A DNA stretch of 63,055 nucleotides from Pirellulales bacterium (lineage in GTDB: Bacteria > Planctomycetota > Planctomycetia > Pirellulales > JADZDJ01). The stretch lies in NCBI GenBank assembly GCA_020851115.1, contig JADZDJ010000183.1, positions 1 to 63,055 on the forward strand. Reading direction: 5' to 3'. Positions 2,344 to 28,541 of this stretch are shown one piece after another. The position numbers and the translations under genes were made by a program. The stretch's first letter is position 1; the number at the start of each line of letters is the position of its first letter. Under the pieces are notes generated by a model. That model was not told where the DNA came from. It did not search any database and was given only the letters and a program-made list of their open reading frames with translations.

Positions 2344-2478
2344 GCGAGATGTCGCCGCCGGTAAAACGCAGGTGAGAATCTGGCACTCACTATCGTACCG
2401 AGCGGGCCGTGCAAATTCCACGAGAAGCTGCACCGACGCCCTAGTTTCTCCGCCGCAAGTTTGGGTACGATCACAAAC

Positions 2479-4434
2479 ATGGACTCCGCATTAACCAATT
2501 CGGGCAGACTGCGCATTGCTGCCTTCGAGAATCGCCGCGCGGTCGAACTGTCATCGCTCATTGAACAATTCGGCGGAATTCCGCTCATCGCGGCCGCCAT
2601 GCGAGAGGCCGCGCCCGCCAAAAACCCTGAGGCCGTCGACTTTGCGAACCGCGTCATGACCGGCCAGGTTGACACGATCATTTTTACCACGGAAGGCGGC
2701 GTCCGGCGGTTAGTCGAGCAAGTCGAGCGTCACGTCGATCGGCAGCGATTTCTAATGGCGATCTCCGATGTCGTTACGATTTCGCGCGGCCCCAAGCCCG
2801 CGGCAGCACTGCGCCAATTTGGCATTCTTCCAACTTATATTACCGCTGAACCGCACACTTGGCGAGAAATCTTGCAGACGGTCGATCACTATGTCTCTCT
2901 GGCCAATCTAACCGTCGGATTGCAAGAGCACGGCGAACCGAACGCTAGTTTGCTCGCTGGATTGGAAGCACGCGGCGCAGCGGTGATCAACTTGAAGTTG
3001 TACCGTTGGGAATTGCCCAATGATACTGCGCCTCTGGAAGCAGTGCTGAGGCAAACAGCTCGTGGGGAAATCGACGTCATACTGTTCACTTCCGGCCAAC
3101 AAGCGACCAATATCCTGAACGTTGCCGAACGTCACAATTTCGCCGATCAACTGCGTCAAGGCATCCGTTCGGCTGTCGTTGGTTCCATCGGTCCCAGCAC
3201 CAGCGCGATGTTGCGGCAACTCGATTTATCCGTGGATGCACAGCCCGACCATGCCACGATGTCGGCGCTTGTCGAAACGGTTGCAACGCGCGCCGCCGGA
3301 TTGTTGGCGAAGAAGCGTTGGCTATCGAATGCAATTCCTGCCACGGCAAAATCCACAACGATTGCGGAAACGAAACTAGCCAGTGCGTTGGACGTCAGCG
3401 ATCCGGCCTATCAAAGCGCGTTCCTTAAAGCCTGCCGCAGCGAAGCCGTGCCGTACACGCCGATTTGGCTGATGCGTCAAGCCGGCAGATATATGCCCGA
3501 ATATCGGGCGGTTCGCGAAAAGGTCGGTTTTCTTGAACTTTGCAAGGATCCCGCCCTTTGCGCCGAGGTAATGATCACTGCAGTGAAGCGGTTGGGGGTC
3601 GATGCCGCGATCATCTTTTCCGATCTGCTGCCAATTCTGGAACCGATGGGCCTCGAGTTGGAATTCGCAGCGGGAGAAGGTCCGGTAATTCACAATCCCG
3701 TGCGCGAAGCGCGCGATGTCGATCGCGTGCTGGAACTGGAAAGTGTCGAATCTCTCAGTTTTGCAATGGAAGCGGTGCGTCTCACTCGCGAAGGTTTGCC
3801 GCGCGGCCTGCCGGTGATCGGCTTTGCCGGCGCCCCGTTCACATTGGCAAGCTATGTGATCGAAGGTGGAGCGAGCAGAAACTTCTTGCATACGAAAACG
3901 CTGATGTACCGCGACAGCGGCGCATGGACCGTGCTGATGAGCCGTTTGTCCCGCGCCATTACGCGGTATCTCAACGCTCAAATTGCCGCCGGCGCCCATT
4001 GCGTGCAACTATTCGATAGCTGGGTCGGCTGCCTCAGCCCCGACGATTACCGCCGCTTCGTCCTGCCGCACGTAAAGTGCATCATCGAGGGCCTCATTCC
4101 AGGCATTCCGGTCATCAATTTCGCTACTGGCAATCCTGCGCTTATCCCACTGCAAACCGAAGCCGGCGGCAGCGTGGTCGGCATCGATTGGCGAATTCGC
4201 CTCGATGATGCCTGGCGAGCGGTCGGCCACGACCGCGCCATTCAGGGAAATTTGGAACCTGCCGTGCTGTTTGCTGACCGAAATGAGCTACGCCGGCGGG
4301 CCAAGGAAATCCTGGACCAAGCCGCCAGCCGCCCTGGACACATCTTCAACCTCGGCCACGGCATCTTGCCGCAAACGCCAGTCGATCACGCGGTAGCCCT
4401 GGTCGACGCCGTGCATGAACTGAGCGCGAAGTAG
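2479..4434 (+). CDS. hemDE: Fused uroporphyrinogen-III synthase / uroporphyrinogen decarboxylase
   Basis: One uninterrupted frame carries two successive enzymes of heme synthesis. Residues about 8-275 form a HemD-like Rossmann pair (RIAAFENRRAVELSSLIEQF, then DVILFTSGQQATNIL and SAVVGSIGPSTSAMLRQL), which closes hydroxymethylbilane to uroporphyrinogen III. After a linker, residues about 300-650 are a full HemE. Its hallmarks are PIWLMRQAGRYMPEYR (from about residue 326), FSDLLPILEPMG with the catalytic aspartate, GFAGAPFTLASYVIEGG, CVQLFDSWVG and FNLGHGILPQTP. HemE decarboxylates uroporphyrinogen III to coproporphyrinogen III, so the fusion joins consecutive steps. A TTG at 2461 is an alternative start; the ATG at 2479 is preferred. 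Both domains look intact. The gene is divergent from the hypothetical protein before it and convergent with the DUF1559 gene after it. Confidence 0.93.
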   Translation: MDSALTNSGRLRIAAFENRRAVELSSLIEQFGGIPLIAAAMREAAPAKNPEAVDFANRVMTGQVDTIIFTTEGGVRRLVEQVERHVDRQRFLMAISDVVTISRGPKPAAALRQFGILPTYITAEPHTWREILQTVDHYVSLANLTVGLQEHGEPNASLLAGLEARGAAVINLKLYRWELPNDTAPLEAVLRQTARGEIDVILFTSGQQATNILNVAERHNFADQLRQGIRSAVVGSIGPSTSAMLRQLDLSVDAQPDHATMSALVETVATRAAGLLAKKRWLSNAIPATAKSTTIAETKLASALDVSDPAYQSAFLKACRSEAVPYTPIWLMRQAGRYMPEYRAVREKVGFLELCKDPALCAEVMITAVKRLGVDAAIIFSDLLPILEPMGLELEFAAGEGPVIHNPVREARDVDRVLELESVESLSFAMEAVRLTREGLPRGLPVIGFAGAPFTLASYVIEGGASRNFLHTKTLMYRDSGAWTVLMSRLSRAITRYLNAQIAAGAHCVQLFDSWVGCLSPDDYRRFVLPHVKCIIEGLIPGIPVINFATGNPALIPLQTEAGGSVVGIDWRIRLDDAWRAVGHDRAIQGNLEPAVLFADRNELRRRAKEILDQAASRPGHIFNLGHGILPQTPVDHAVALVDAVHELSAK

Positions 4435-10683: not shown

Positions 10684-13600
10684 TCACCGCGGTCGAACTC
10701 GAAGCTGCGAGGACTTCGGCTCTGCTGCCAGACGAGCCACCGTTGACCCAGCCGCCGTCGCCGCTGGTCGAGCAGGCCTGCGCGAACTCCATGCGGCAGC
10801 GATGCTGACAACAATTATTCCTGGCCCAACGACGGCTGGGGACAGCCAAATCCACCACGCCAAACCAGCGAGCACGCCGATGCCTTCCGGCAGAAATCGG
10901 ATGCTGCGGACGCTCCTCGAAGTTCGCCAAGTAACCGCCATCAATACCCCTCCTAGCAGCACTGTGGCTAGCGCGGCCAGTAAGCGTTTCACCGTAGGGT
11001 CGCCGGCACGATGCGGAAACTCTAAGTTCAGTGTCGATTCATTGCCGCGGAGCAAGACATGCGTTTTAGCGTCACTTGAGGGTTGTATCGACTCCAGTAA
11101 TGCGCCGAGATTGGCGACGGTGGGCCGACTCGCGGTGGCTTGTTGGAAGGTGTCGGTCATGCCCAATCGATCGGCAAGCTTCGCTTGGCTGGCTACGATT
11201 TGAGCGAATTGTGCGGTCGTCTCGTCGTTCGCCGTGTCGCCAGTTTTCGCCTCAAGAATGCGTTCTCTGGCATAGCGACCTGATTGCAACCGCTGTAACC
11301 ATTCCTGATACCAACCGCTCAAACGCGATTCGGGTTCTTGAAGCGCTTCTTTTTCGGCCGATGCAAGCAAATCCGCGACACTTTGGGCCCGTAATAGGCC
11401 GTGAGCGTTTTCATCCATGATCCTGCCAGACTCGGGCGAGGCCGTTCCCATATTTTCGCGGGTGCAAATCGTCCAGAGAGTTTTTCGGACTGGTACGTCC
11501 ACCATAATTGGCGCTTGCAGTTCCGCTGGAGATTGGAAAGTGGCTGATTGCAATTGGAAATATAGAACATCGAACTGACGCGGCAGGCTGCTTTCGCCGA
11601 GCCACACATTCCAACGATTGTCGCTCAACCGCGACATTTGTGCCGGCGCGCGGTCGAGACGCGCGTCGATTAATTGCGCGCCGTTGGGCAGTTCCAGTGG
11701 ACAATTTGCCGCCCCCCCCGGTTCAAGCTCGAAGCCGGCAACTCCGACTACGCTGCCGTCAGATCGTAGTGCGATCGAAAAATCCGCCAATCGTACTTGA
11801 GCATTGCCGATGCCACGTTCCACCGAGCGTAGTTCTGCCCGATAGTAGTCCGACACTTGCTCCAGGCTGCGGTAGTTCTTGAGATCAAGATCTCCGGACG
11901 GCAAGCCTTCTGGCAAGGGCTTATCGACCAACCCAGAGGTATCCCACGAAAGCTGCTCTTGCTCGTAGCGTCTGGGAAGCAAGAGATAACTCGATCTCGA
12001 ACCAAGGCCGCGCATTCGCACTTGGGGAGCGGCCCACCGGCGGTTGGAAGCCAACGCGATTGGTCCGGCAATTCGCAAACGAAACGACTTGGCGATCGGC
12101 GATGGTGGTTGCACCACTAGCTGCTTTTGATCTCGATGAGTCGAATCTTCCCAATGGCTTGGTAGTTTCGGCACGATTTCGAACGGTCCGGTCCAATTCG
12201 CGGGAACATCGAATCGAAGTTGGTCGAGTAGCCCAGCCTCCACGCGCACGTCAACGTCGATCATTGCCTGCCATCGTTCGGCTTGTCGTTCCAGCGTCGT
12301 AAGTTGCCTTACGCGGGTGCGCGGCGAATTGGACTGAATTTTCACGGCGACTGGCGCATATTGCTTGCTGCCATTTACAACCGCCACGACGCGAGCATCC
12401 TCCAGCAATATCGCAGGAATGTCGCCACTTTCTTGCCAGGAATGACCGAGCGAGGCTTGCGAGTCCGCGGAGATCGTCGTCGCTCCGGAAGCATCCGTGA
12501 TTTCGACGAGCGCGTCTGGGCGGCGCAAGATCAGCGCGTCGAATGTTTCGTGCGAAGAGCCATCAAGGCGAATATCCGGTAAGACCCACTCGCCGGATGG
12601 CTGCAGCGGCATTCGTCCTCGGACGAGCAGTTTGCGCTCGCCCGAAAAAGAGGCGTCGAGAAAAATGGTTACGGCCGTATCACGACAGCGCGTCCAGCGC
12701 AAGGGGTGGCGCTCAGCGCCATCCAATGCCAACACTTCCTCAATTTGAAAGTTCTCCGGCGTCCGGAGGCGATATTGAAAAAACGGTGCGTCTGACGAGA
12801 CCGCCGCCTGAAAGTACAACTCAACCGCGGTCGGCTCGACAATGGCCGCCAGTTGATATCGAGCACTACGTTTTGGTACGGCGGGGTGTACGGCCAGATA
12901 GGACGCTCCAACTTCGTTACCGCTGAGTGAAAAAGCCAATTGGGGTATGGACGATGCCGCTTCCCAGGCGGCGCCAAATTCTTCAGCCGTCACTTTCGCG
13001 GCTTCGTTACTGAGGTGCGCGGAAAATTCGAGAGTCGGATCGACGCTTACCCCCCAGAATCGTCGGATGGTTTGTCCATCCCGTAAATCCATCACGGGAA
13101 AATGCAGATTGCCAATCCCCGTAGCGTCGGTCAGCATCAACGACAGGTTAACGGTCGTTTGGCCAGCGATCGGTTCAGGCCAATCGATCAGCAGCAACCC
13201 CGGCTCATTTTCCGCGACGCGAAACCTTGGCGGCACGCCCGACTCTGCCGAAGGCAACAATTGCAGCCGCGGGTCGATCGCCAAACGAAGCTGCGACAAG
13301 CGGCCTTTCCGCACTCGCACCAAATATCGTACATCGACCGTCACAGCGCCCGGTCGCACGTTAAGCCAGCAAACCTGATCGCCTTCGAAATCCGCAACTT
13401 CATGGCCGTCTTGACTCGCATGTGGCACGGGCATTGATTCTTGGAGGACAATGCGAGGTGAGGGGCCAAGCGCAACAGTCGCGTGGTCTCTATCTACTGA
13501 ACGCCTCTCCCCAATCGCTGAAACGATCAACGGCGCTGCAGAGTCACGCGATGTCAAATGCAATTCCGCGCAGGCTGTAACCGGGATGGCGAAATCGTAT

Positions 13601-16600
13601 CCGACCGCATTGTATTGTGGTCGGAATTGCACTTCTAACCGATGGCGACCGGCGTCCGGTACTTCAATACCGACGGAGTCGAGCGATTCGTTCTTACGGA
13701 GGTTCGCAGGTTTGCCATCAATCAGTACTCCGCCCGGTTCGAGTGCAGCGCCGTTGAAACCCAGCGGCATGTCGATGATGGCTTGGGTAACGAGCGATTC
13801 AATTTCGTAGATTGATTTCCAGCCGCGGGAGACAGGTGCTGCATCATTTCCTGCGCGGTTCTGAGCCGCTTCATAAACAGCACTCAATAGGAGATAATCG
13901 GGCGATGGCGATTCGTGGCGCTCCGTTTGCATCACCAGCCAACGGTGAAACGATTCCGGCAAGTAACATGCACCGCCCACAGGATGCCCGTCTGGATCCG
14001 CTGGAATCAAGACTTGAACGGGGGGTGATTCTTGGTCAACACTTGCCGTGGATTGCAGCGGCAATTTCCTGCGGTTTTCATGGGCAATCTCCGGGCGTCC
14101 TGTTTCCGCCTGGGTGGTCGTTGGTTCCTGCGCCGAAATCAGTCCGTGACAGGCTGCAACAATCAGCCATCCTGTCGCCGTTCCTGCCGCCACCAACGCT
14201 CTTCGCCGCGCAAAAGATTCACTAGCGAACATCGCGGAACCGGCCGATCCTGATCTTGGACGACACCAAAGGAAACATTGAGTTGCAACCATCGCTAGCC
14301 AAACTGCGGCGGAAAAAGTCGTCCATGCAGGTGGCACGAGGAGCGCTGCTGCCGTAACCGCTGTCACAAGACCAATTTCTACCGTTGGACGCCGATTCCC
14401 AATCCACCCGCGAATCGCCGCTGCAATTGCAAAGGTCGCCCAGAACCACGCGAGCGCTGAGCGCTCGTTGGCGACCCAGATAGTCGCTCGGTTGCCGGAG
14501 AGCCCTTCGAATCGATAGATTTTCCAGCCGTCGCTTTCCAAAAAGCGATCTTTCAAATCGACTTTCCAAGGCAACGCCAGCGATTTGTGATCGGCATCGG
14601 TTCCGTTGTCAGCCGTAACCGTCGCCGTTGACACCGATTGAATCGGAGCGTCAGCCACTCGCAGCAAAGGGCCAAACAACCTCGGCAACATGCCACGATC
14701 GTTTTGACTTCCATTTCCTAAATCGGCCCAAGCGACCTCCGTTCCGGGTGGTATTGCAACTGTCCATTTACGCATCAAAATCGGTACTGCACACTCTGGC
14801 CACGGCGATGCGAACTGCGAAAGCTTGCCAAGGCGTGCGTGCGCATCGATCCAGCGCAGGACGACGGTGATGAAACGCGCCTCGGGTGGAAGCTTAACCT
14901 GGCAGTGCTGAGGATCCGCCAGTAACGGATCGATCGTCGCTCGATCGTCGATCCAGGCGCCCTTGAGATCGGCGCCTGCCGGCAGTTGGAAGCGAATTTG
15001 GTCGCGCCCCGTATTTTCCACTCGGCAGGTTAGTACGTGCTCAGCTTCTTCATTGTCATAACGCGACTCTAAATGAGCCTGCCAAACCCACGCGCCAGCG
15101 CGGGCCGATAGCTCAAGCCGCGGAGCCAAAATCAATGGCGGCTCGGCCGACACCAAGCTGATCTCATTCGGATCGTATTGCAGTGCCGCCAGAATATTAG
15201 AAATTTGATTCGGAGGCAGCGGCTCCAGCGGGATCGACTTCAGCCGGCGGCTGCGAATCTCTGGAGCATTTGGCCCCGAGTAGCGAATCTGTACCGAAGC
15301 CAGTTGAGTGTCGGCTCTCAAGACGGAGGCCAAGGCAACGGGGGTATCACCGCGAAAAGGCCGATCGCGCTCAGCACTTAGCGAGAATTCTTTGTTCTGC
15401 GGAACAGGGAGTCTTACTTCCCATGTTTCGCCTTCGGGAAAACCCAATTCGGTTTGCTCTTCGGCCGCCAATCGACGCGACAGCAATTCGACTTGCGGTT
15501 CGCCGATTAACTGCCATCGCACAGCCTCTTCGCGCGGCTGGGTGAATCGAACGAGCAGCCGATCGATTTCCTGCCCCTGCGGTCGAATCGCCAAGTGATA
15601 CATTTCGCTTAACGTGCCTTCGTGAACGTGAACGTCGCCGCGAATGATCGTAGAGAATCGAGGCGGCTGCGCGATCGTCGAAATGGAAAGTGTTCGCGCT
15701 CGCTCGTCATCGACAAATATCAGGCCGATTGCTTGCCCTGCAAGCAACGCGGCATCGGACGACGCGAGGCTTTCGGCGGCGAGTCGCTGCAATCTTTCAT
15801 CGTTAGCGGATTGAATTTGGAGTTTCTCCGTCGTTTGAACCTGAATTAGCCGCCGTGTGGAAATCGTATCGTCAAAATCGAGCATGCGCAGGTCTTCGAC
15901 ATTTAAAGTCTCCCGACCATTCGCGCGCCGCCGATGGCCGGAGATTTTCAATTCAATGCCGCGACGTGAAGTTAAAGGAGACTTAAGTTCAATCGCCAGT
16001 TTTCCAACCCGGCCGTCCAAGGCCGTAAAATTCCAATCGTCGACCAGCTCCACGGGCTGTGGCGCCGGCATTGCCTTGCCAACCGATGCCGCTGGTGGCG
16101 CTGTTTCTCGGCCGAATTGCAACGATGTCGCCGCGACGCTGTCGATGGTCCATTGCGGAGCCACGATAGCTTCGATCGTAAATCGCTCGTCGGCAGTTGC
16201 CGTAAGTGCTCCGCGAAAGTGCCCGACTGCTTGATTCGGGCGCAACACGATCGATGTCCCGGCGGCGATTTGAATGCGATCCTGTTTGGACGCCACTTGA
16301 AATTTGATCTGCGGAGCATTGCTGTAGAGTTGCACCTCAAGGGCCTCCGGCGCCGAAGATACGGCGAGCGATTCGGCGGCGATTTGTCGGCAATCGACGG
16401 TCGTCAAGTCTTCCAGCAGGAGTGGTGGCAAAATGATTAGCGATACAGTACCTTGTTGCCAGCGCGTCTCGGCAATTTGCAGCAGTGGTAGCCGCTGAAG
16501 CGTGCCGTACTTGAGCGGAGCCACCGCGCGGATTCGCAATTTTCGATTGCGGCCCGACAACGGCTCTGGCAAGCGAAGCGTCCATTGACTGTGTCCGCCG

Positions 16601-17559
16601 ACATCGTCAGCGCTCAACTTCACAGAACATTCCACTTCGTCCAGATGCGCAGAGACGACGGTTAAAGGCTCGTCGGCCAGCAGTGTGAGCCGAGCGACTG
16701 CATCCCCGGCGGCATCCATTCGGAACTCGGCGTTCAATTCCAAACCTCGTTCGGAACACTCATAAACGAAATGATTGCGAATAATGGGTGAGGGCCGCTG
16801 CTGGCGAGACGCTTCGCGTGGAGCAATCCGCAGATGAGCTTGGGAATAGCCGCCCAGTTGGATTGCCCACGTCCGCACGCCACCTTGCGAGGTTGCCGAG
16901 GTTGCCAGCGAGACGAGTCCACGGTCGACCGTAGGAATGAGTTTGGCCGGCAAGGCGATCTCCAGAGTACTCACGGCACAAGGCGGCAGCGAGAGATCGA
17001 AACGCAGTTGGCCGCCGGCGCTTCGCTGCCCGCGCAACGACCAGTTACAGTGGAGTTTTCCAGACCGTTCGACGATCGCAGCCAATCGGCCTTGGCGGTC
17101 GCTGCCGAGAATCGCCGGTCGTTGCGAGTCTAACCAAGCGGGGCTGTTGATCGCCAGCCGGCAGTTTTCGAGGAAGACGATTTTTCGATCTTTTCCGTTA
17201 TGTTCAAAGTGCCATGTCGCCGTGCCGGTGAGGCAATCATCGGTTAACTTGGCGGCATACTGCGCATCGAGTAGACTTGCGGCAGGAATCGTCGCTGACC
17301 TGGTGTATGATTCTCCGAGTTGTCGCACGCGGCGTTCAAATTCATCAATGGACATCGGCAGGTAGTGCTGCGATTCGTCCTTCGGCCATTGATTCGGCTG
17401 ATCGGCAGGAACGAAAATCCGCTGGAATTGCCTGGGCGCGACGACACTTGTCGCAGGATCGCTTCTATCGGATGGTTCTCCGGTCGCCCCCGCGACGATT
17501 GCCAATTGTGCAATCCATATCGCGATGCCTATCCAATTGGTATTGATGCCGCTGCGCAT
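10684..17559 (-). CDS. Giant exported/membrane protein, 2291 aa, function unknown
   Basis: The start ATG (17557-17559) lies 3 nt after the stop of the 1154-aa gene, so the two are almost certainly co-translated. An N-terminal signal-like helix ([20 protein letters not shown]) is followed by [16 protein letters not shown] and [13 protein letters not shown]. After that come more than 900 residues of repeated beta-strand-rich segments of the type [17 protein letters not shown] and [21 protein letters not shown] hydrophobic cluster at about residues 1033-1150 holds several membrane segments ([33 protein letters not shown] and [12 protein letters not shown]). A second long extracytoplasmic part follows, then paired helices at about 2190-2260. 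No catalytic motif was found. It looks like two similar halves, each ending in a membrane anchor. The last 30 residues are basic. Family not recognised beyond resemblance to large planctomycete hypothetical proteins. Confidence 0.85.
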
Positions 17560-17562
17560 CGC

Positions 17563-20500
17563 TCACCTACTTGAAGATTCCGTCGATAACTCGATTTCGA
17601 CGGGAAGGCTCTCGGTCGAAGCGGGGGCCGGCGTCTCGATGGCGCGGACCGATGTTGCGGCAGGACGCGGATCAATAATGGAACTGCCGGCACTGCGAAC
17701 GATCGTCGGCGATACTCGCTGGCGGCGTTGTGCAAACTCGATCAGTGTCGCCAACAACACCAGCGCGAAACCAAGCAACGATGCCTGTACGAACAATAGC
17801 GCCAACTCGGCCTTCCACGCGGCCAGCCCCGCGATGACCACGCCCATCGCCAAGAGCGAAACCGGCCGGCGTAGGATATGAAAATAAATCAGTAACAGCC
17901 CCCAGGCGAGCACCGCGATGGAGGCCACCAACACCAATTCTCCGCGGGCGGCAGTCCAAAGTTCGATTCTAGCGGGGCTACCAGCCATGCTGAACAGGTA
18001 TCGATTCGTCGATTCCGGCAAATCGGCACCTAGATCAACGCCGGTCCAATTCTCCAATTCGTTTTGCTCCATCGTGGAGCGGCGCTGCCATCCAAACTGG
18101 TCCCATTGCCAAGTGAATTCCGGCGTAATTCGCGCCGGTGCATCGATTAAATGACGATCGGCCGGCACCGCCAGTTGCCAATAGAAGTGCTGAACGCCGA
18201 CGCTGGCCGCAAACTTGGGCAAGTCGACCGAAACCGAATGCATGTCGTCGGCGTCGGCAAGTTGATAGGTCACGACCAAGGAATGCGATGACTTTTGAAC
18301 GGGCCAACGCAATGTCACGGTGCGACTTTCGTCGGGTTGCGCTGGGATAGATTCATCATCCACTTTGATTTGAACGTGATCGAGCGGTCCGCTGGGCAAT
18401 GTGAAGCTGATTTGTTCCTCGGAACTGGACAGCACATAAGCTGCGCGGTCTTGACGCACTCCGCCGCCAATCCACGTTTGCACCCAACCTCGCTCCACCA
18501 CCGTGCTGCCCGTGCCCTGACGCACCTCGCGGCTGACGTCGAGCTGAATCTCTGACTGCGCGCCGGTCGCCGACAAGCGGATCGGTGGAATGCCATTGCG
18601 CTCGGTCAATCCGCTCGCGGGTTCTTCGTCGATCGTCCACGCCTCGTCATCGGGAGTCACCCGCAAAGCCGACTCGCGTGTTACCGTGAGACGGTTGGCG
18701 ACCAGTAAATCCGCTGGAGGCATCACGAGCGGAATCTTCACGGGATCACCCGACATAAAATCCGCTTGTGCGAAAGGCAGACGGTATTTGATCTTGGCGG
18801 TAAACCGGCCGAAGCGCGATTCGAGCAAAGGCACTCGCACCGTTGTTTTGTCGGTTCTATCGGGCGAAGTTCCTCCTGAAATGGGAGCCACCGGCACGTC
18901 GTCGATCAGAATCTGCCAGTTTTCTTGGTTTTCCACTTGCCGTGGAACGAGCAAGGTTAGCTCGGAAAGCGGCTCGTGCTCGACGCGATATTCCAATTGC
19001 TGCTCGACCACCGCGCCGTCGTGGCGAACTTCAACGGCACCGTCGACCGCGACGCTCATTGCTTGCGGCAATGGCTCTGCGACGGCAACGAATTTGGCAT
19101 GCGGCTGGTCGGCTCGATAGCTGAACGGCGGTTGTTCACGCGGCGGCAATCGCAACGTGTTTGCCGACGACACTCGAGTCAACCCGACGATTTCTTCTTC
19201 ATCAGGTCGCAATCGCACGTTGTTTTCAGGTTGAACGAGAACGGCGGCTGGCTCGATCTTGTCAGCATGCGGTGTCGGCAAAACAAGTTCGATCCGACTT
19301 CGATCTTCTGCTCGGTAACGATGAGCCGAAATCGTCAGTTCGAATTTGCCGTTGATGCCCTGTGGAAGGTGCGCTGTTTGCAACGGCCCTTCGCCAGACC
19401 AGAACTGCTCGGCATCGATGGCCTCGGTCGGCTCAATGCCGTCCGGCGTCCATCCGGGCATTTCGACTGCCAAGTCGAACACCTTGCCGCCTCGGATGGT
19501 GTATTTCAGCTTCGCTTCAAGTCGGATTCGGTCGGCTTCAACCTTGTAGGTATACTCCGGCTCCAACGCAATTTGTGTCTTTCGCGGCGAAACCCGCGCC
19601 GCCAACGATGCAGGTCGGCCGAAGTACTTGAAGCCGATGGCGTCGTCGCGCTTGAGTGCGGGAGGCAATTCTTCAATCTGTCGCACGCGCTCGGTCTTGC
19701 TGAAGGATAATCGCCAGTCATCTCGCACCACGACGGCAATGTGGCCCCATTGTAAGTGCGGCAATGCTTCTACTACGTCGAATCCCGCCAATTCGAGCGT
19801 CTCGCTGGGGTTCGTCGCATCGTAGGCGCGTTCGGCCGCAATGCGTACCTTGACCGGACCTTTGCTTTTCTGGGCTAATTGTACGGTGACAATCCCTTCA
19901 TCATCCGTGCCGCCGGTTAGCGTATAGCCGGCATTGTTTGTGTCGGCGGCAACGCGACTGGACTTCGCCGGCAACTTGATCTGAAATCGATCGAACTCGT
20001 CGGCCAGGCTACGAACGGTCAGCAAAGCGTCAAATCGCACGCTGCGGCTATCGAGTTCTGCGAGAATCTGCCCTTCAACTTCTAGCCGCGACGTTGCCGG
20101 CGCCACCGTTGCAGCGCCTTCTTTCCACATGAGTGAAAGCGGACCACCCAAGCCCCAAGCATGGATTTCCGACTTGCCGTCGTCGAGATGACCGACGTCG
20201 GCAGTAACTGCGCCTGTATAGGTCGTCACGGAAACGCTATCGTGCGGCACCACAATCGATAATCGCGAGGCCGCGGCAGTGGGCAAATCGACTTCCAGTC
20301 GTCGCTGGCCGTGGACATTCTTTAGCGTCACGAAGTATTTGAGCGTCAACTCGTGCTGCGATTTCGCAGGCCCCTGGACGACGACCGAATATCCACCGGT
20401 AGCGGCATCAAATTGAACGCGTTGATCACCAGGGCCGTGATAGGAGGCCGGCTCGATTAACACAGCGCCGCCGGTCACTAGCGGCACGGTTGACAACTGC

Positions 20501-21027
20501 TCGTCGCCCAGCCGAATCGTATACGTCGCCGTCAGTTGCGCTCGGTTTTCGGTGGCCTCGCCTGCGATCACCAGTTGCTGCAAATCATGCGAACGCGGTT
20601 GTGACGCACCGTTGCTTTCGGCTTGCTTCCGGCGATGAAATTCTTGAAGTTCCTCCCAGGTAAAGCCCAAGAGAGGAACGAGCCGACCTTGCTTGTCGCG
20701 GACATACTTGATTGCCGGTTGTTCGAGGATGCGCTGGGAATGTTCCGGTTTGGCGGAATGGTTCGTTGATTCAGATTGATCGTCGTCCGCTGCCGTAGCT
20801 GGTGGGGAAGCCGCCGTTTGTGGCTCACCGTCCGCCGCGCGCGCAATGCGTCTCCTGGTATCGGCGCTGGTAAAAACCAGCGCCAAAAGCACCGCGACTA
20901 CCAGACGCTTGGCGTTCGGTCGCAAGGATCCTGTTCCAATCTGCTTGATGCCTTTGTCCGGACTGGCGGGACAGCAGCACAATGAAAAGTTGCCGGGACG
21001 AAAGTACTTCGGCACGCCGGCCGCCAC
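17563..21027 (-). CDS. Large exported/membrane protein, 1154 aa, partner of the giant gene
   Basis: A basic N-terminus leads to a signal-like helix (KRLVVAVLLALVFTSA) and then an acidic/Ser-rich stretch. After that comes YVRDKQGRLVPLLGFTWEEL, which parallels the [13 protein letters not shown] region of the next gene. The middle is beta-rich (QLTATYTIRLGDEQLSTVPL, LSIVVPHDSVSVTTY, HELTLKYFVTL). The C-terminus has membrane helices at about residues 1000-1085 (LVLVASIAVLAWGLLLIYF and LLAMGVVIAGLAAW) and a Ser/Pro/Thr-rich cytoplasmic tail. The start is uncertain: ATG at 21027 leaves about 40 residues before the signal, and a TTG near 20925 would be tighter. It shares fold-like features and arrangement with the 2291-aa protein and probably works with it. 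No enzymatic motif seen. Confidence 0.85.
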   Translation of the reverse strand: MAAGVPKYFRPGNFSLCCCPASPDKGIKQIGTGSLRPNAKRLVVAVLLALVFTSADTRRRIARAADGEPQTAASPPATAADDDQSESTNHSAKPEHSQRILEQPAIKYVRDKQGRLVPLLGFTWEELQEFHRRKQAESNGASQPRSHDLQQLVIAGEATENRAQLTATYTIRLGDEQLSTVPLVTGGAVLIEPASYHGPGDQRVQFDAATGGYSVVVQGPAKSQHELTLKYFVTLKNVHGQRRLEVDLPTAAASRLSIVVPHDSVSVTTYTGAVTADVGHLDDGKSEIHAWGLGGPLSLMWKEGAATVAPATSRLEVEGQILAELDSRSVRFDALLTVRSLADEFDRFQIKLPAKSSRVAADTNNAGYTLTGGTDDEGIVTVQLAQKSKGPVKVRIAAERAYDATNPSETLELAGFDVVEALPHLQWGHIAVVVRDDWRLSFSKTERVRQIEELPPALKRDDAIGFKYFGRPASLAARVSPRKTQIALEPEYTYKVEADRIRLEAKLKYTIRGGKVFDLAVEMPGWTPDGIEPTEAIDAEQFWSGEGPLQTAHLPQGINGKFELTISAHRYRAEDRSRIELVLPTPHADKIEPAAVLVQPENNVRLRPDEEEIVGLTRVSSANTLRLPPREQPPFSYRADQPHAKFVAVAEPLPQAMSVAVDGAVEVRHDGAVVEQQLEYRVEHEPLSELTLLVPRQVENQENWQILIDDVPVAPISGGTSPDRTDKTTVRVPLLESRFGRFTAKIKYRLPFAQADFMSGDPVKIPLVMPPADLLVANRLTVTRESALRVTPDDEAWTIDEEPASGLTERNGIPPIRLSATGAQSEIQLDVSREVRQGTGSTVVERGWVQTWIGGGVRQDRAAYVLSSSEEQISFTLPSGPLDHVQIKVDDESIPAQPDESRTVTLRWPVQKSSHSLVVTYQLADADDMHSVSVDLPKFAASVGVQHFYWQLAVPADRHLIDAPARITPEFTWQWDQFGWQRRSTMEQNELENWTGVDLGADLPESTNRYLFSMAGSPARIELWTAARGELVLVASIAVLAWGLLLIYFHILRRPVSLLAMGVVIAGLAAWKAELALLFVQASLLGFALVLLATLIEFAQRRQRVSPTIVRSAGSSIIDPRPAATSVRAIETPAPASTESLPVEIELSTESSSR

Positions 21028-22244: not shown

Positions 22245-22580
22245 CGGCGGAATTCAGAAATCGGCAGGATAATGATTCACGCCCGCTAAGCAATGGGTTT
22301 TCATTCCGCTACCCATTTGTTATTTGTTATCCACATCCATCCGCAGACTTACGAATGTGTAATGTCCAGCTAGTTTGCCTCGACCTATCATAAACATTTC
22401 GTAACAATATGAACTTTTGGAACTTGCACCTGTAGCATTTTATCCAGACTGCCACAATTCCTGCCTCGTGAATCGCTTTGAACGCTGCGCGGCTGGTCTC
22501 GCCGCGGGCCGAAAAAGTGCGCAATTGCTTTGCTGGCTGCCATTTGCAGCATCTTTGAGTGTCTTGATTGGAACCTGGCC

Positions 22581-25500
22581 GTGAATTCCGCCGCTTTGTT
22601 TGAATCGAGAAATAGCCCCAGTGCCGATTTGCGCTGGAAATTTGATCGCTTGCAGCAGATCATCGAACGCGCAGCCCATCGCCTGCCGTCGCAGGGACCG
22701 ATTTCGACATTCATTCATCATAACACGCTGCACGCCTTGGAAGGACTGCGCTTTCAGGCTGCTGTGGCGGAAGGGTCCAAAGTCTTCGGTTGCAATGCCT
22801 ATCTCTCGGAAGACCGTTATCGCGATCAGTTGGCGAAAGGTCGAATCCGCGGAGAAGATCTGGAAGCCATCCTGTGTCGTGACTTAGGGCCGGAGGCCGA
22901 CGTGCCTGTCCTGCCAGGATGTCGCCGCATCGACCTCCGGCTAGCAATGTTGCGCTATCCGCTGCGAGCTGCGCCATCCACCGAGCTTCGCTGGTTCTTC
23001 GCTGAGATGGATGCGCTGCGAAAATTTCGCACCGATGCTCCCGATAATGCCCGGCAGCAATTCCTCGATGAAGCGCGGCACTGGGCGATGCGCGACCTGC
23101 GGCTCAACGCGCAGTCGCCCACTGCGATCAACAATGCGACCGATCGATCGCTAGTCGCACTGTTGAATCGATTCGGCGCAAAATCGATCGAACATTGGAG
23201 CGCCGCTACCTGGGAAGCCTTTGCACTGCAGGCGCTGTGGCGAGTCGTGCGCGATGGTGTTCACGACGTTCCGCCGCCTACCGATGCCGCGCAGCCGAAT
23301 CTTCGCGGGCGCGACTGGCTGCTTTCGGTAACCGGGGAAGATGCCGACTGGCTCGTGAACGACTTGCTAATTCGATTTTGTGGAGCGTTTCTCGACCAAG
23401 GATTTGCCACCTGCCCGCTTCCAAACCGCGATCAGGGGTTCTTCCGAGCGTTTTGCGAACTCTATCGTCAGCGTGGAACATCACCGGACCGATGGCGACG
23501 CGATTTGGCTGGCGAGTTGGCTCGATGGGAAAATCTGCAAGCGACGCCGTTGGACTGCATCCTGGAATCGCTCGACGAACTTGGAATCGCGGAATATAAC
23601 TGGGAAGAGTTTATTTCACAGACATTCCTCGCGTTGCGCGGTTGGGGTGGAATGATTCGTCAGATGGCCTTGCGAGACGCCGCCGCAGTGCAGGCGACGC
23701 TGCCGCAAAGCATCGTGGAATTTCTGGCGGTACGTTTACTGTTGGATCGGCTGGCGTGGAAACACTTGGCGAAGCGCGTGTCAAGTTTCAGCGGGCCGCT
23801 CAGCGAGTTGCGGCAAGTCCATCGGCCTTCGTTTGGGGTGAACGAAACCGCGGGGGTCGATCAGCGCGCATTCGCTCTTTTCCAATTGGCTCAAGTCTTG
23901 GGGTGGCCGCCTTCGGTACTGCATCGATTGTCCGCCGAATCATGGGTATCGCTAGTCGAGGAAATCGAGGCTTTTCCTGAAATCGAGCGCCAACGAGTTT
24001 TGCATTTCGCCTACGAACGGCGATATCGCATTCAAACTCTCGACGGCATACAGATCGCATCTAGGGAGAATGCCAAGCAAAGGCTTCGGCCCGAGTTTCA
24101 GGTGGTTTGTTGCATTGATGAGCGGGAAGAATCGTTCCGCCGACACTTGGAAGAGATTGCTCCTCAGGTTCAGACTTTCGGCGCGGTCGGCTTCTTTAAT
24201 CTGGCGATGTACTATCGCGGCGCGGCCGACGCAAACTTTACTCCTCTGTGCCCGATTTCCACCCAGCCGTACATTTGGGTTCAAGAGGAAGTCGCGTATT
24301 CCATGACCGATGTCCATCGTCGGCGCGCTTCGGCTCGACGAGCACTGGGCGCAGCATCGCACCGCGTTCATATCGGAAGCCGCAGCTTTGCCGGCGGATT
24401 GATCGCGGCGATTTTTGGAATGCTGGCGTCGATTCCGCTCGTGGCGCGAATCATGTTTCCCCGATTGACGGCTCGAGTGCGGCGGATCTTTGCCCGATTT
24501 ATCCAGCCTCCGCCGGTGACGCAATTGCAATTGGAACGCATCGACGCTTCGCCAGGGCACGAAAACCGCGGAATCGGGCTCTCGCTGCAGGAAATGGTGG
24601 TTGCCGGCGAGCAATTCCTCCGCGATATCGGCATGACGGGAGAATTCACGCGAATTGTTGTGGTGTTGGGACACGGCTCCAGCAGCCTCAACAACCCGCA
24701 CAACTCCGCCTACAACTGCGGCGCTTGCGGAGGCGCCGCCGGCGGCCCCAACGCACGCGCGATCGCGCGAATTCTCAACGATCCACGGGTACGATTTATC
24801 CTGGCGGAGCGCGGCTTGAAAGTTCCGGATGAAACCGTGTTTATCGGCGGAATACACAACACTTGCACCGATTCAGTTGCATTCCTGGATATCGACGACT
24901 TTCCGCCAGCTCGGCTGCGAGAATTTGAAGCAATTCGCGCTCTGATCGAACAAGCTTGCAACCGAAATGCTCACGAGCGATGTCGACGATTCCAGTCCGC
25001 TCCGCTCGATTTGTCATTTGAGGAAGCCCGCGCCCACGTCGAGGAGCGCTCGGAAGACCTCTCTCAAACGCGGCCGGAATGCGGGCACGCAACAAATGCG
25101 GTTTGCTATGTCGGACGCCGCGAGCGAGTTCGCGGGCTGTATATGGACCGTCGCACCTTCCTGGTTTCCTACAATCCGACAAAAGACTCTGCCGACTCGG
25201 ATATCCTCTTGCGGCTGCTGCAAGCGGCAGTGCCAGTTTGCGCTGGTATTAACTTGGAATACTACTTTTCGTATGTTGATCCGGCCGGTTGGGGGTGTGG
25301 TTCAAAATTGCCTCACAACGTCACGTCGCTTTTGGGAGTGATGGACGGCGCTGCGAGCGACCTGCGAACTGGCCTACCCTGGCAGATGGTGGAAATCCAC
25401 GAACCTGTCCGCTTGCTCTTCGTCGTCGAAACGACGCCGGAAGCGATGATGAGCATACTCGATCGGAGCGAAGAAATCGGCCGGCTATTTCGCAACGAGT

Positions 25501-25673
25501 GGATTCAACTAGCGATCCACAGTCCTGGTGCGTCGGATATTCATGTCTTTGTCGATGGGCGACTGGAACCTTACCTTGGCGCAGCCTCCGAATTGCCGCG
25601 AGTCGGTTCATCGACTGAGTGGTATCGCGGCTGGCGCGACCACTTGGGATATGCGCTGATTGAGTCGTCGTAA
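22581..25673 (+). CDS. dabA: Inorganic carbon transporter subunit DabA (DUF2309)
   Basis: DabA is the cytoplasmic, beta-carbonic-anhydrase-like subunit of DAB, which couples CO2 hydration or bicarbonate accumulation to a cation gradient. The predicted zinc site is complete. CIDEREESFRRHLEE supplies Cys511 and Asp513. LGHGSSSLNNPHNS supplies His698, and NCGACGG supplies Cys713 (Cys716 is also present). His to Cys spacing is 15 residues, as I recall for characterised DabA. FIHHNTLHALEG near the N-terminus is another family hallmark. At 1030 aa it is longer than the roughly 830 aa of proteobacterial DabA, mostly in the N-terminal half. The start is GTG 22581; a TTG at 22530 is possible. The membrane-subunit gene follows after 37 nt. 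Confidence 0.92.
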   Translation: MNSAALFESRNSPSADLRWKFDRLQQIIERAAHRLPSQGPISTFIHHNTLHALEGLRFQAAVAEGSKVFGCNAYLSEDRYRDQLAKGRIRGEDLEAILCRDLGPEADVPVLPGCRRIDLRLAMLRYPLRAAPSTELRWFFAEMDALRKFRTDAPDNARQQFLDEARHWAMRDLRLNAQSPTAINNATDRSLVALLNRFGAKSIEHWSAATWEAFALQALWRVVRDGVHDVPPPTDAAQPNLRGRDWLLSVTGEDADWLVNDLLIRFCGAFLDQGFATCPLPNRDQGFFRAFCELYRQRGTSPDRWRRDLAGELARWENLQATPLDCILESLDELGIAEYNWEEFISQTFLALRGWGGMIRQMALRDAAAVQATLPQSIVEFLAVRLLLDRLAWKHLAKRVSSFSGPLSELRQVHRPSFGVNETAGVDQRAFALFQLAQVLGWPPSVLHRLSAESWVSLVEEIEAFPEIERQRVLHFAYERRYRIQTLDGIQIASRENAKQRLRPEFQVVCCIDEREESFRRHLEEIAPQVQTFGAVGFFNLAMYYRGAADANFTPLCPISTQPYIWVQEEVAYSMTDVHRRRASARRALGAASHRVHIGSRSFAGGLIAAIFGMLASIPLVARIMFPRLTARVRRIFARFIQPPPVTQLQLERIDASPGHENRGIGLSLQEMVVAGEQFLRDIGMTGEFTRIVVVLGHGSSSLNNPHNSAYNCGACGGAAGGPNARAIARILNDPRVRFILAERGLKVPDETVFIGGIHNTCTDSVAFLDIDDFPPARLREFEAIRALIEQACNRNAHERCRRFQSAPLDLSFEEARAHVEERSEDLSQTRPECGHATNAVCYVGRRERVRGLYMDRRTFLVSYNPTKDSADSDILLRLLQAAVPVCAGINLEYYFSYVDPAGWGCGSKLPHNVTSLLGVMDGAASDLRTGLPWQMVEIHEPVRLLFVVETTPEAMMSILDRSEEIGRLFRNEWIQLAIHSPGASDIHVFVDGRLEPYLGAASELPRVGSSTEWYRGWRDHLGYALIESS

Positions 25674-25710
25674 ACGTTGCAAATACCGGATTAAGGCAAG
25701 GGAGTGACCT

Positions 25711-27099
25711 TTGGACCTGATTACAAATTTAGAAACAGCATTTGCCTATCTGATCGTTGGCGCACCTGCGCTGTTGGTTGTCGTACTTGGCTTGTGTCTT
25801 CTGTTTGAGCGACCGCTGAGCGAGCGAACAACGTGCCAACTAGTGGCTACTGTGCTGTCTGTGGGGTTTATCTCGGCTCTGGCGATGAGTGGATGCGCGT
25901 GGTTGCACGGCATGCCGCAGCGAACGGTGCCGCTGGGCGATTGGGTCGTTGTTTCGGGTTACAAATTCTCCGGAAAATTGCTGTTTGACTGGCTTTCGCT
26001 GCTATTTCTGGTTCTATCGTTCATGCTCTGCGGCGTGATCGGTCGATTTGCGACTCACTACTTGCACCGCGAACCGGGGTTCCATCGCTTCTTTGTGCTA
26101 TTTGCTGTTTTTGTTTTCGGAATGACGCTGACTTCGATCGCCGGGACGATCGAAACCCTGTTCACCGGCTGGGAATTGGTCGGTTTGTCGTCGGCACTGC
26201 TTGTGGCGTTCTTTCAAGATCGCTCAGCTCCTGTGCGAAATGGGTTGCGCGTCTGGTCGGTCTATCGAATATCCGACGCGGCTTTGCTGATTGGCGCCGT
26301 CGCGCTTCACGGGATGAAAGGTTTTGGCGACTTCCAGGCGCTGTTTGGCGAGACTGCTTGGCCGCACGGCGAGCCGAGGCTACTTGCGTCGCAAGCGCTG
26401 CTCGTGGGAGTCTTATTCGCGGTCGCGGCGGCTGGAAAATCCGCGCTTGTACCATTTTCCGGTTGGCTGCCGCGCGCCATGGAAGGCCCGACCCCATCGA
26501 GCGCTATTTTCTACGGTGCACTGTCCGTGCATCTGGGCGCGTTCTTGCTATTACGCGCCGGCCCGCTGATTTCCCTGTCGATTCCACTCTGTGTGCTGCT
26601 CGTGGTCTGGGGACTGGCTACCGCGGCCCTATCCGCCAGCGCAGCACGCGTTCAAAGCGATATCAAAAGTGCTTTGGCGTTCGCGTCGTTGACGCAAGTG
26701 GGATTGATCGTGGCCGAAATCGGTCTCGGGTTGCGTTGGATTCCGCTGATTCACATGATTGGTCACGCCTCGTTGCGTACGCTGCAATTCGTTCGCGCTC
26801 CCAATCTGCTGCAGGATTACCGATCGATGGAAAACGCCATGGGTAGGCGGCTGCCGCACTCGATCAACGCCCCTCGGCGTGTCCTGCGATCGCGGTGGCA
26901 AAGGTGGTTTTATCGCTGGGCGCTGGAACGCGGCTATTTTGACGAATTTCTCAATGAATTTATCGTACGGCCCTTTTTGTCCATGTTTCGCTGGTTTGAT
27001 TCGCTGGAGCGCCGGTGGACTGATTTCTTATCGAGTCGTCCTTCGCGCGAGTCTGATGAAATCAAACCGCATAGCGACTTGGTTGAGGAATTCGTATGA
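25711..27099 (+). CDS. dabB: DabB-like NuoL-type membrane subunit
   Basis: The start is TTG 25711, set by a strong AAGGGAGTGA ribosome binding sequence 7-10 nt before it. The protein is a multi-pass antiporter-like (Proton_antipo_M) subunit. It has GWELVGLSSALLVAFFQDR, the AGKSALVPFSGWLP block with the conserved lysine, MEGPTPSSAIFYGALSV, and DIKSALAFASLTQVG carrying the second lysine. At 462 aa it is shorter than NuoL (about 600). It ends in a soluble Arg/Glu-rich tail of about 90 residues (RWFYRWALERGYFDEFLNEF) that resembles the C-terminal arm of NuoL/DabB. It should drive cation movement coupled to DabA. The stop overlaps the next ATG (ATGA), so translation is coupled. Confidence 0.9.
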   Translation: MDLITNLETAFAYLIVGAPALLVVVLGLCLLFERPLSERTTCQLVATVLSVGFISALAMSGCAWLHGMPQRTVPLGDWVVVSGYKFSGKLLFDWLSLLFLVLSFMLCGVIGRFATHYLHREPGFHRFFVLFAVFVFGMTLTSIAGTIETLFTGWELVGLSSALLVAFFQDRSAPVRNGLRVWSVYRISDAALLIGAVALHGMKGFGDFQALFGETAWPHGEPRLLASQALLVGVLFAVAAAGKSALVPFSGWLPRAMEGPTPSSAIFYGALSVHLGAFLLLRAGPLISLSIPLCVLLVVWGLATAALSASAARVQSDIKSALAFASLTQVGLIVAEIGLGLRWIPLIHMIGHASLRTLQFVRAPNLLQDYRSMENAMGRRLPHSINAPRRVLRSRWQRWFYRWALERGYFDEFLNEFIVRPFLSMFRWFDSLERRWTDFLSSRPSRESDEIKPHSDLVEEFV

Positions 27100-28541
27100 C
27101 GACGCTGCATTTGCCGTGGCTCGAAGCGTCTATTCTCGTGTTACTGGGCGGCGCGGCATGGGTTTCGAGGCTGCGCACGGCGGAAGCGAAATCATCCACC
27201 TGCTTGTGGATTTCAGCGATTGCATTTGCGTTGACCGTCGCAGCTTGGGTGGATTATGTGGCGCTGATGCAAGAAACGGCCCAAGGGCCAGTTGCGTCGT
27301 GGCTGGAACTCGAAAGTATTCTAATCATCGACTCGTTAGCTGCGCCGCTTCTGCCGTTGGCGTCGATTCTGTATTTGTTCACATTCGCAGGAACGTTGAA
27401 AACAAAGTTTCGGCAGTTTTCGTTTCCAGGAGCATTAATCGCGGAGGCGATCTTGCTGGCGATATTCGCTTGCCGGGCCGGTTGGCCGCTGGCAGTGCTG
27501 TTAATGTTCCGCCTCGTCCCGCCCTACTTGGAAATGCGAAGCCGCGATAAGCCGACGGGAGCCTACGTATTCCATCTGCTTGCTTTCGCCATCCTGCTCG
27601 TCGGAGGTTATGCGCTGGTCAAGAGCCAAACCCAATTGCCGGCCAGTGGCTGGATCGTAGCGCCCCTGACGATCGCCGTTCTCATCCGCGGCGGCATTGC
27701 GCCATTTCATTGTTGGGCGCCCGATTTGTTCGAGCATGCAACCTTTGGCACCGCGCTGCTGTTTCTGACGCCGATGGTTGGTGCGTACTCCGCGGCAAGA
27801 TTTGTACTGCCCATTGCCACCATCGACACCTTGCATGCGCTCGGTCTGATTGCATTGGTCTCGGCCTTGTACGCGGCGGGCATGGCAATGATTCAGCGAG
27901 AGGCTCGACGCTTCTTTTGTTATCTACTGCTAAGTCACTCGGCGCTGGTGTTTGTCGGCCTCATGAGCGGCTTCGAGGTGTGCCTTACCGGAGGTTTGTG
28001 CATCTGGCTCTCGATTGGCCTGTCGTTGGGAGGCTTGGGATTGACCTTGCGAGCGTTGGAGGCTCGCCACGGGCGATTATCGCTAGTCCGGTTCCAAGGG
28101 TTGTACGATCACACCCCGGCGCTGGCCGTCTGTTTTCTGTTGACGGGCCTGGCAAGCGTAGGGTTTCCCTATACGTTTGGCTATATTGGAACTGAAATGC
28201 TTGTGGATGGCGCCATTCACGCGTATCCATACGTCGTCGGCGCGATCGTCGTGATGGTCGCCGCGCTCAATGGCATTGCCGTAGTGCAAGCGTACTTCAA
28301 AATATTCACCGGCTCGCAGCACGTTTCGACGATTCACTTGGGCATCGGCATTCGCGAGCGCTGGACAGTGCTGAGCTTAGCCGCGCTAATTTTCGCGGGC
28401 GGATTGTTTCCGCAATCCGGAGTTGCTTCGCGCTTTCACGCCGCCCAAGAGTTGCTGAAACCGCAACAAACGCATCCTGCGTCGCCAAGGTCCGCGAACT
28501 TGTCGCCCGTGCGACACGTCAGCCGTCGCAGTGACGGGTAA
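27096..28541 (+). CDS. Second Nuo-like membrane subunit of the DAB locus
   Basis: A 481-aa multi-pass protein with NuoM/NuoN character follows. IRGGIAPFHCWAPDLFEHA corresponds to the 'KGG..PFH.W.PD.YE.AP' block, with arginine at the usual lysine position. After that come FLTPMVGAYSAARFVLP, MAMIQREARRFFCYLLLSHS and FGYIGTEMLVDGAIH. The start ATG at 27096 overlaps the stop of the previous subunit by 4 nt. Standard DAB operons have one DabB; here the membrane part is split over two different antiporter-like subunits. The C-terminus carries about 40 polar, Ser/Arg-rich residues. I infer that this is a third DAB subunit because of the tight coupling and lack of any other nuo gene in the window. 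Confidence 0.85.
   Translation: MTTLHLPWLEASILVLLGGAAWVSRLRTAEAKSSTCLWISAIAFALTVAAWVDYVALMQETAQGPVASWLELESILIIDSLAAPLLPLASILYLFTFAGTLKTKFRQFSFPGALIAEAILLAIFACRAGWPLAVLLMFRLVPPYLEMRSRDKPTGAYVFHLLAFAILLVGGYALVKSQTQLPASGWIVAPLTIAVLIRGGIAPFHCWAPDLFEHATFGTALLFLTPMVGAYSAARFVLPIATIDTLHALGLIALVSALYAAGMAMIQREARRFFCYLLLSHSALVFVGLMSGFEVCLTGGLCIWLSIGLSLGGLGLTLRALEARHGRLSLVRFQGLYDHTPALAVCFLLTGLASVGFPYTFGYIGTEMLVDGAIHAYPYVVGAIVVMVAALNGIAVVQAYFKIFTGSQHVSTIHLGIGIRERWTVLSLAALIFAGGLFPQSGVASRFHAAQELLKPQQTHPASPRSANLSPVRHVSRRSDG

Follow-up and report, generated by a model that had tools for sequence, protein, structure and literature searches.

In the DAB2 complex of Halothiobacillus neapolitanus the ion path runs through the membrane subunit DabB, and a glutamate on a membrane-inserted finger of DabA completes its exit side; this residue, Glu444, sits among transmembrane helices (TM) 11-14 of DabB2, and the substitutions E444A and E444Q are inactive (PMC13144422). 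DAB1 of the same species has three subunits (PMC13144422), and the 2017 COGNAT paper places NuoM (COG1008) and SulP (COG0659) genes beside ybcC(dabA)-nuoL operons (PMC5700660). Both reports run counter to an earlier note on the DNA analysed here, made from the letters alone, which held that known DAB operons have one membrane subunit. That DNA is a stretch of 63,055 nucleotides (nt) from a Pirellulales bacterium (positions 1 to 63,055 of contig JADZDJ010000183.1, assembly GCA_020851115.1), the whole of which we call the window, and it carries a DAB-type locus in which a long DabA without the finger glutamate is encoded together with two different antiporter-like membrane subunits, here named B and C.

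The locus consists of three open reading frames (ORFs), all on the plus strand, within 22581-28541 of the window, in the order dabA, B and C:

22581..25673, plus strand: dabA of the long type; 1030 amino acids (aa) from the GTG at 22581, or 1047 aa if the TTG at 22530 is the start; PF10070, E 3.8e-235; from PF10070 and the predicted fold, a probable cytoplasmic beta-carbonic-anhydrase-like subunit.
25711..27099, plus strand: B, NuoL/DabB-like and truncated; 462 aa, with about 11 TM helices and an amphipathic end, TM12-15 missing.
27096..28541, plus strand: C, a NuoM-like third subunit; 481 aa, 14 TM helices.
27096..27099, plus strand: ATGA overlap of the B stop and the C start, 4 nt.

The ORF positions, the sizes of B and C and the ATGA overlap agree with the earlier note, and a gap of 37 nt separates dabA from B. 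DabA matches PF10070 with 783 bits over the whole model (cut-off 25), B matches PF00361 with 122 bits and PF00662 with 39 bits, and C matches PF00361 with 74 bits; in NCBIfam, B comes closest to the NuoL model and C to that of NuoM, both far under the cut-offs. The match to the 294-position PF00361 model spans 6-227 in B and 79-291 in C: the front of the antiporter domain is kept in B and the back in C. The operon holds no electron-transfer subunits, and among the window ORFs there is no MrpA-G gene set and no other antiporter gene adjoining it. The identification as a DAB-type system with two different antiporter-like subunits, as first proposed, is well supported.

The best 80 of 203 relatives in a contig scan were all from Planctomycetota, except one titled only 'bacterium'. 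The 80 dabA loci that we compared separate cleanly into two kinds: 25 canonical loci, where DabA is mostly about 800-920 aa and DabB (mostly 510-570 aa) lies upstream of dabA, and 55 loci with a long DabA of about 1015-1100 aa, followed by B of about 450-490 aa and C of mostly 460-530 aa. B and C adjoin dabA at 50 of the 55 long loci, with an overlap of 4 or 1 nt between B and C in 47 of these 50; the remaining five include a contig end and unlinked dabA genes, with a B-C pair elsewhere in each such genome. At two loci (L154 and L162) long dabA is followed directly by C with no B detected between them, and the L154 assembly has a separate B-C pair (L140). DabA is present in 198 of 297 Planctomycetia genomes, and its long form in about half of 148 sampled ones, among which 74 have both long DabA and C, two have DabA only, two have C only and 70 have neither, the four one-sided genomes being partly fragmentary assemblies. 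For the earlier note, a C both dispensable and absent from related dabA loci would have been a refutation; C is found nearly wherever long DabA is. Distance matrices correlate between loci at 0.82 for A-B, 0.79 for A-C and 0.89, the highest, for B-C. The arrangement is found in tens of genera, far beyond chance, and organisms with C include Singulisphaera acidiphila, Rhodopirellula baltica, Bythopirellula polymerisocia and Tautonia sociabilis; the three-gene system is thus that of a large clade within the phylum, and not a single-genome oddity. In a plasmid search, matches to DabA covered no more than 70% of the query and those to C were only at the level of NuoM.

With the residues of DabA numbered from the start at 22581, the positions that matter most are these:

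24111..24125, plus strand: zinc-site codons Cys511, Asp513 and Arg515; the same in all long, canonical and anaerobic ammonium-oxidizing (anammox) DabA aligned.
24378..24455, plus strand: core of the membrane finger, residues 600-625 (SRSFAGGLIAAIFGMLASIPLVARIM); the Glu444 position without Glu.
24672..24719, plus strand: zinc-ligand codons His698 to Cys713; spacing 15, no variation.

The zinc site originally predicted (Cys511, Asp513, His698 and Cys713, with a His-Cys spacing of 15) is borne out, since these residues and Arg515 are the same in 33 of 33 long DabA and in all 56 proteins of a broader set; the spacing between His524 and Cys539 of DabA2 is also 15 (PMC13144422). An AlphaFold2 model of the window DabA (predicted local distance difference test score, pLDDT, 84.7) gives a predicted fold whose matches in VIA-align are beta-carbonic anhydrases, with CsoSCA at the top (Z 10.8, 312 residues); a Foldseek search of the model against the PDB gave nothing at E <= 0.001, and the DAB2 structures were not among the matches. 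The same model still predicts a helix for the finger. An acid at the Glu444-equivalent position occurs in none of 42 long or anammox-type DabA, and 24 of the 25 canonical DabA from planctomycetes have the finger motif FVE, which includes the Glu. One canonical DabA (L073) has FVGP where FVE is expected.

The residues of interest in the two membrane subunits are as follows:

26173..26175, plus strand: B Glu155, equivalent of NuoL Glu144; 52/52.
26437..26439, plus strand: B Lys243, equivalent of NuoL Lys229; 52/52.
26512..26514, plus strand: B Tyr268, replacing NuoL His254 and DabB2 His260; Tyr in 52/52.
26665..26667, plus strand: B Lys319, equivalent of NuoL Lys305 and DabB2 Lys310; 52/52.
26776..26778, plus strand: B Arg356, replacing NuoL Lys342 and DabB2 Lys347; Arg in 52/52.
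27687..27689, plus strand: C Arg198, replacing NuoM Lys234 in a broken TM7; Arg in 51/51.
28194..28196, plus strand: C Glu367, the TM12 acid, one residue off NuoM Glu407; Glu or Asp in 51/51.

In an alignment of 52 B proteins, the equivalents of NuoL E144, R175, D178, K229, S250, K305, H334 and H338 are kept. The conserved lysines that had been ascribed to B hold for K229 and K305, but not for K342, where all 52 have Arg; beyond the lysines, the equivalent of H254 is Tyr in every case. We also checked in B the entry half-channel and ion-pair set of DabB2 (Ser256, His260, Lys310, His339, His343, Lys347, Lys235, Asp185 and Arg182), and most equivalents are kept, with His260 changed to Tyr and Lys347 to Arg in 52 of 52. 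B ends past TM11 with an amphipathic segment, and TM12-15, which hold the finger in DabB, are gone. C has lost the TM5 Glu, the TM7 Lys and the TM8 Lys of the relay, the second of these being the Arg that the earlier note had rightly seen in the IRGGIAPFH block; its acid, Glu367, sits in a broken TM12. The fold predicted for C, taken from a relative's fused B-C model, matches NuoM with a Z of 42.7 over 453 residues and MrpD with a Z of 42.1. From the loss of TM12-15 in B, and from the relay losses and the retained TM12 acid in C, we infer that the two are complementary halves, each keeping what the other lacks.

The idea of a split membrane module gains support from anammox relatives, which hold the pieces in one chain. 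Members of one family (f62) can be taken as anammox planctomycetes because hydrazine synthase is carried by three of the four genomes tested, and here a DabA without the finger Glu is paired with a membrane protein of 650-665 aa, with no C adjoining. Residues 33-448 of the 653 aa chain match B over nearly its whole length (324 bits), and residues 546-650 match C 314-419, which is TM12-13 with the acid (52 bits, i-Evalue 1.4e-17); this is Rosetta-stone evidence that the TM12-13 part of C goes with B. Three anammox loci (L216, L217 and L225) have two different pairs of DabA and membrane protein, arranged head to head. In the second type of pair the membrane protein, of 665 aa, does not score against C in the profile search, although a Glu is present in a comparable segment that resembles TM12. 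In the antiporter tree, B clusters with its anammox counterpart in a single clade (support 99), whose sister on the side of NuoL is canonical DabB (91), and C forms a single clade (99) beside NuoM (89) and apart from the NuoM of the same genomes; in the DabA tree the long and anammox forms stand together, apart from canonical DabA (100). Because C has its own clade beside NuoM and B groups with canonical DabB, C does not appear to be a complex I relic, an origin by which the earlier proposal would have fallen.

At one locus (L197) the B and C genes are in the same frame, and a single read-through B-C chain could therefore be modelled. The fused model has a mean pLDDT of 84.1 and a predicted template modelling score (pTM) of 0.86, and for two domains of similar size a pTM this high suggests that B and C are placed with confidence relative to each other in the predicted docking.

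We favour, with a probability of roughly 55%, a three-subunit, gradient-driven carbonic anhydrase of the DAB/DAC family, in which B and C share one ion path that drives DabA. DabA would turn cytoplasmic CO2 into bicarbonate at its buried zinc site; the entry half in B (Lys243/Lys319) and the exit half in C would make up a single ion path coupled to this reaction, with Glu367, the TM12 acid of C, providing the exit half-channel that is otherwise missing, and the ions would presumably be protons rather than sodium. The bicarbonate made would feed ordinary carboxylases, since the window genome has no RuBisCO large subunit. More specifically, and at something short of even odds, we tentatively picture one channel divided over two gene products, with the entry half in the truncated NuoL-like B, the exit half in the NuoM-like C, whose own entry half is disabled, and the DabA finger Glu discarded now that C provides the exit acid.

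Of the alternatives, the one that fares best, though we think it unlikely, makes C a structural or assembly subunit that anchors DabA and B and carries no ions, with B and the DabA finger conducting alone. The loss of most antiporter relay residues in C is what a degenerate paralogue would be expected to show, and the strongly conserved positions of C include the cytoplasmic-loop residues E322 and R324; yet the TM12 acid has been kept in 51 of 51 despite the relay loss, TM12-13 is the stretch of C that the anammox chain retains, and without C there would be neither TM12-15 in B nor an acid on the finger. It seems to us improbable that the system carries out sodium-coupled transport of bicarbonate, the role proposed for MpsAB of S. 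aureus, in place of proton-driven CO2 hydration: a sodium/bicarbonate symport has been argued for this homologue (PMC13144422), and about 13 of the 55 long loci have a SulP-type transporter gene nearby, in agreement with the COGNAT neighbourhood (PMC5700660), but the zinc site of a carbonic anhydrase is complete here, with its Asp-Arg dyad, and a pure transporter would not need it. We give still less credence to two separate channels, in B and in C, moving more than one ion per CO2 hydrated. The presence of two antiporter-fold subunits fits this, and the COGNAT paper proposes that the number of ions depends on the number of subunits (PMC5700660), but neither subunit holds a complete canonical channel: three relay residues (TM5 Glu, TM7 Lys and TM8 Lys) are missing from C, and TM12-15 from B. 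A view of C as an unrelated remnant of complex I or Mrp that lies beside dabAB by chance, for which its homology to NuoM might be cited, is very hard to credit given its single clade (99) outside the NuoM of the same genomes, its nearly perfect co-occurrence with long DabA, and the location of the complex I-type genes of the window genome on other contigs.

Several observations weigh against a shared ion path in B and C. The residues at which B has Tyr for His260 and Arg for Lys347 matter in DAB2, and because of these replacements the entry half of B may itself work differently. The B-C model is that of a relative, read through a stop codon, and fusing the chains favours contact; just five alignment rows cover its B half. 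Linkage to dabA is not strict, since two near-complete genomes (L101 and L108) keep dabA far from B-C, and in the L154 assembly A stands directly beside C, without B between.

The cellular context places some bounds on the role of the complex. We reject autotrophy as the reason for the system, as the window genome lacks a RuBisCO large subunit. Replacement of the cytosolic carbonic anhydrase can be rejected as well, as a beta-carbonic anhydrase is found in 135 of the 148 genomes; because the window genome and most others have this separate enzyme, the complex does not simply take its place, and the only genomes with a long DAB and no beta-carbonic anhydrase are G010, G130 and G147. Genes for beta-carbonic anhydrase lie within about 6 kb of nine of the 55 long loci and of none of the 25 canonical ones; in six (L070, L067, L072, L061, L118 and L107) the gene is divergent from long dabA and just upstream of it, and some of these loci have a second beta-carbonic anhydrase gene downstream. 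At L106 (11961-14516, plus strand) a SulP-family transporter with a C-terminal universal-stress-protein domain is encoded shortly past C.

In the window the operon is flanked by a Y1 transposase gene and a Clp-like protease gene, the former IS200-like (PF01797; 21546-22244, plus strand), directly upstream of dabA and on the same strand. Further away, a single 657 aa ORF (2461-4434, plus strand) has HEM4 (uroporphyrinogen-III synthase) and URO-D (uroporphyrinogen decarboxylase) domains, and two huge adjoining ORFs on the minus strand (10684-17559 and 17563-21027; 2291 and 1154 aa, 3 nt apart) have no Pfam match.

The layout of the three genes has been known since 2017. The 'clade C' operons of COGNAT (COG3002/COG1009/COG1008/COG0659), with ybcC/dabA upstream of nuoL and with nuoM and sulP, are almost certainly the present system; the available part of that paper is a neighbourhood report alone, which leaves the function unknown and contains no residue, anammox or half-channel analysis (PMC5700660). 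In the open-licence literature we found no other description of the three-gene system, and as far as the open literature searched shows, the loss of the finger Glu, truncations that complement each other, an invariant acid in TM12 and the single chain of the anammox relatives have not been described before. DAB1 also has three subunits, among them the DabA and DabB types, but its third is a small hypothetical transmembrane protein (PMC13144422), whereas C is a 14-TM NuoM-like subunit. The anammox loci (L216-L225) share the loss of the finger Glu and have a B-like part in their 650-665 aa chain, which in the 653 aa form also holds the TM12-13 part of C; they differ in having two genes and one membrane polypeptide, with no separate C adjoining. 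C shares the fold of NuoM and MrpD, and B aligns to TM1-11 of NuoL, but the operon has no electron-transfer genes, B has lost TM12-15, and C has lost the relay residues TM5 Glu, TM7 Lys and TM8 Lys of NuoM, its TM12 acid being shifted by one residue. If the single channel is indeed divided between B and C, nature would have dissected the complex I antiporter module, and a complex I-type antiporter in complementary halves would bear on the disputed proton routes of complex I.

With DAB2 (DabA2-DabB2; PDB 9rd0/9rd8/9rd9) the system has in common a PF10070 DabA with its zinc site, a NuoL-like membrane subunit and, as predicted here, a beta-carbonic-anhydrase-like fold with a helical finger. It differs in that dabA comes first with B and C downstream, that DabA is about 1030 aa long with insertions in the N-terminal domain and without Glu444, that B stops past TM11 and keeps a Glu (Glu155, 52 of 52) where the equivalent of NuoL Glu144 is Ile151 in DabB2, and that an extra NuoM-like subunit is present. 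The finger glutamate of DabA is essential in the DAB2 model, and a widespread clade has lost it, with its zinc site intact and a subunit gained; this clade is therefore a direct natural test of that coupling model, a defined three-gene target for the family's question of protons or sodium and, should the channel prove to be shared between B and C as we tentatively propose, a second way beside that of DAB2 to couple ion flow to zinc-based CO2 hydration.

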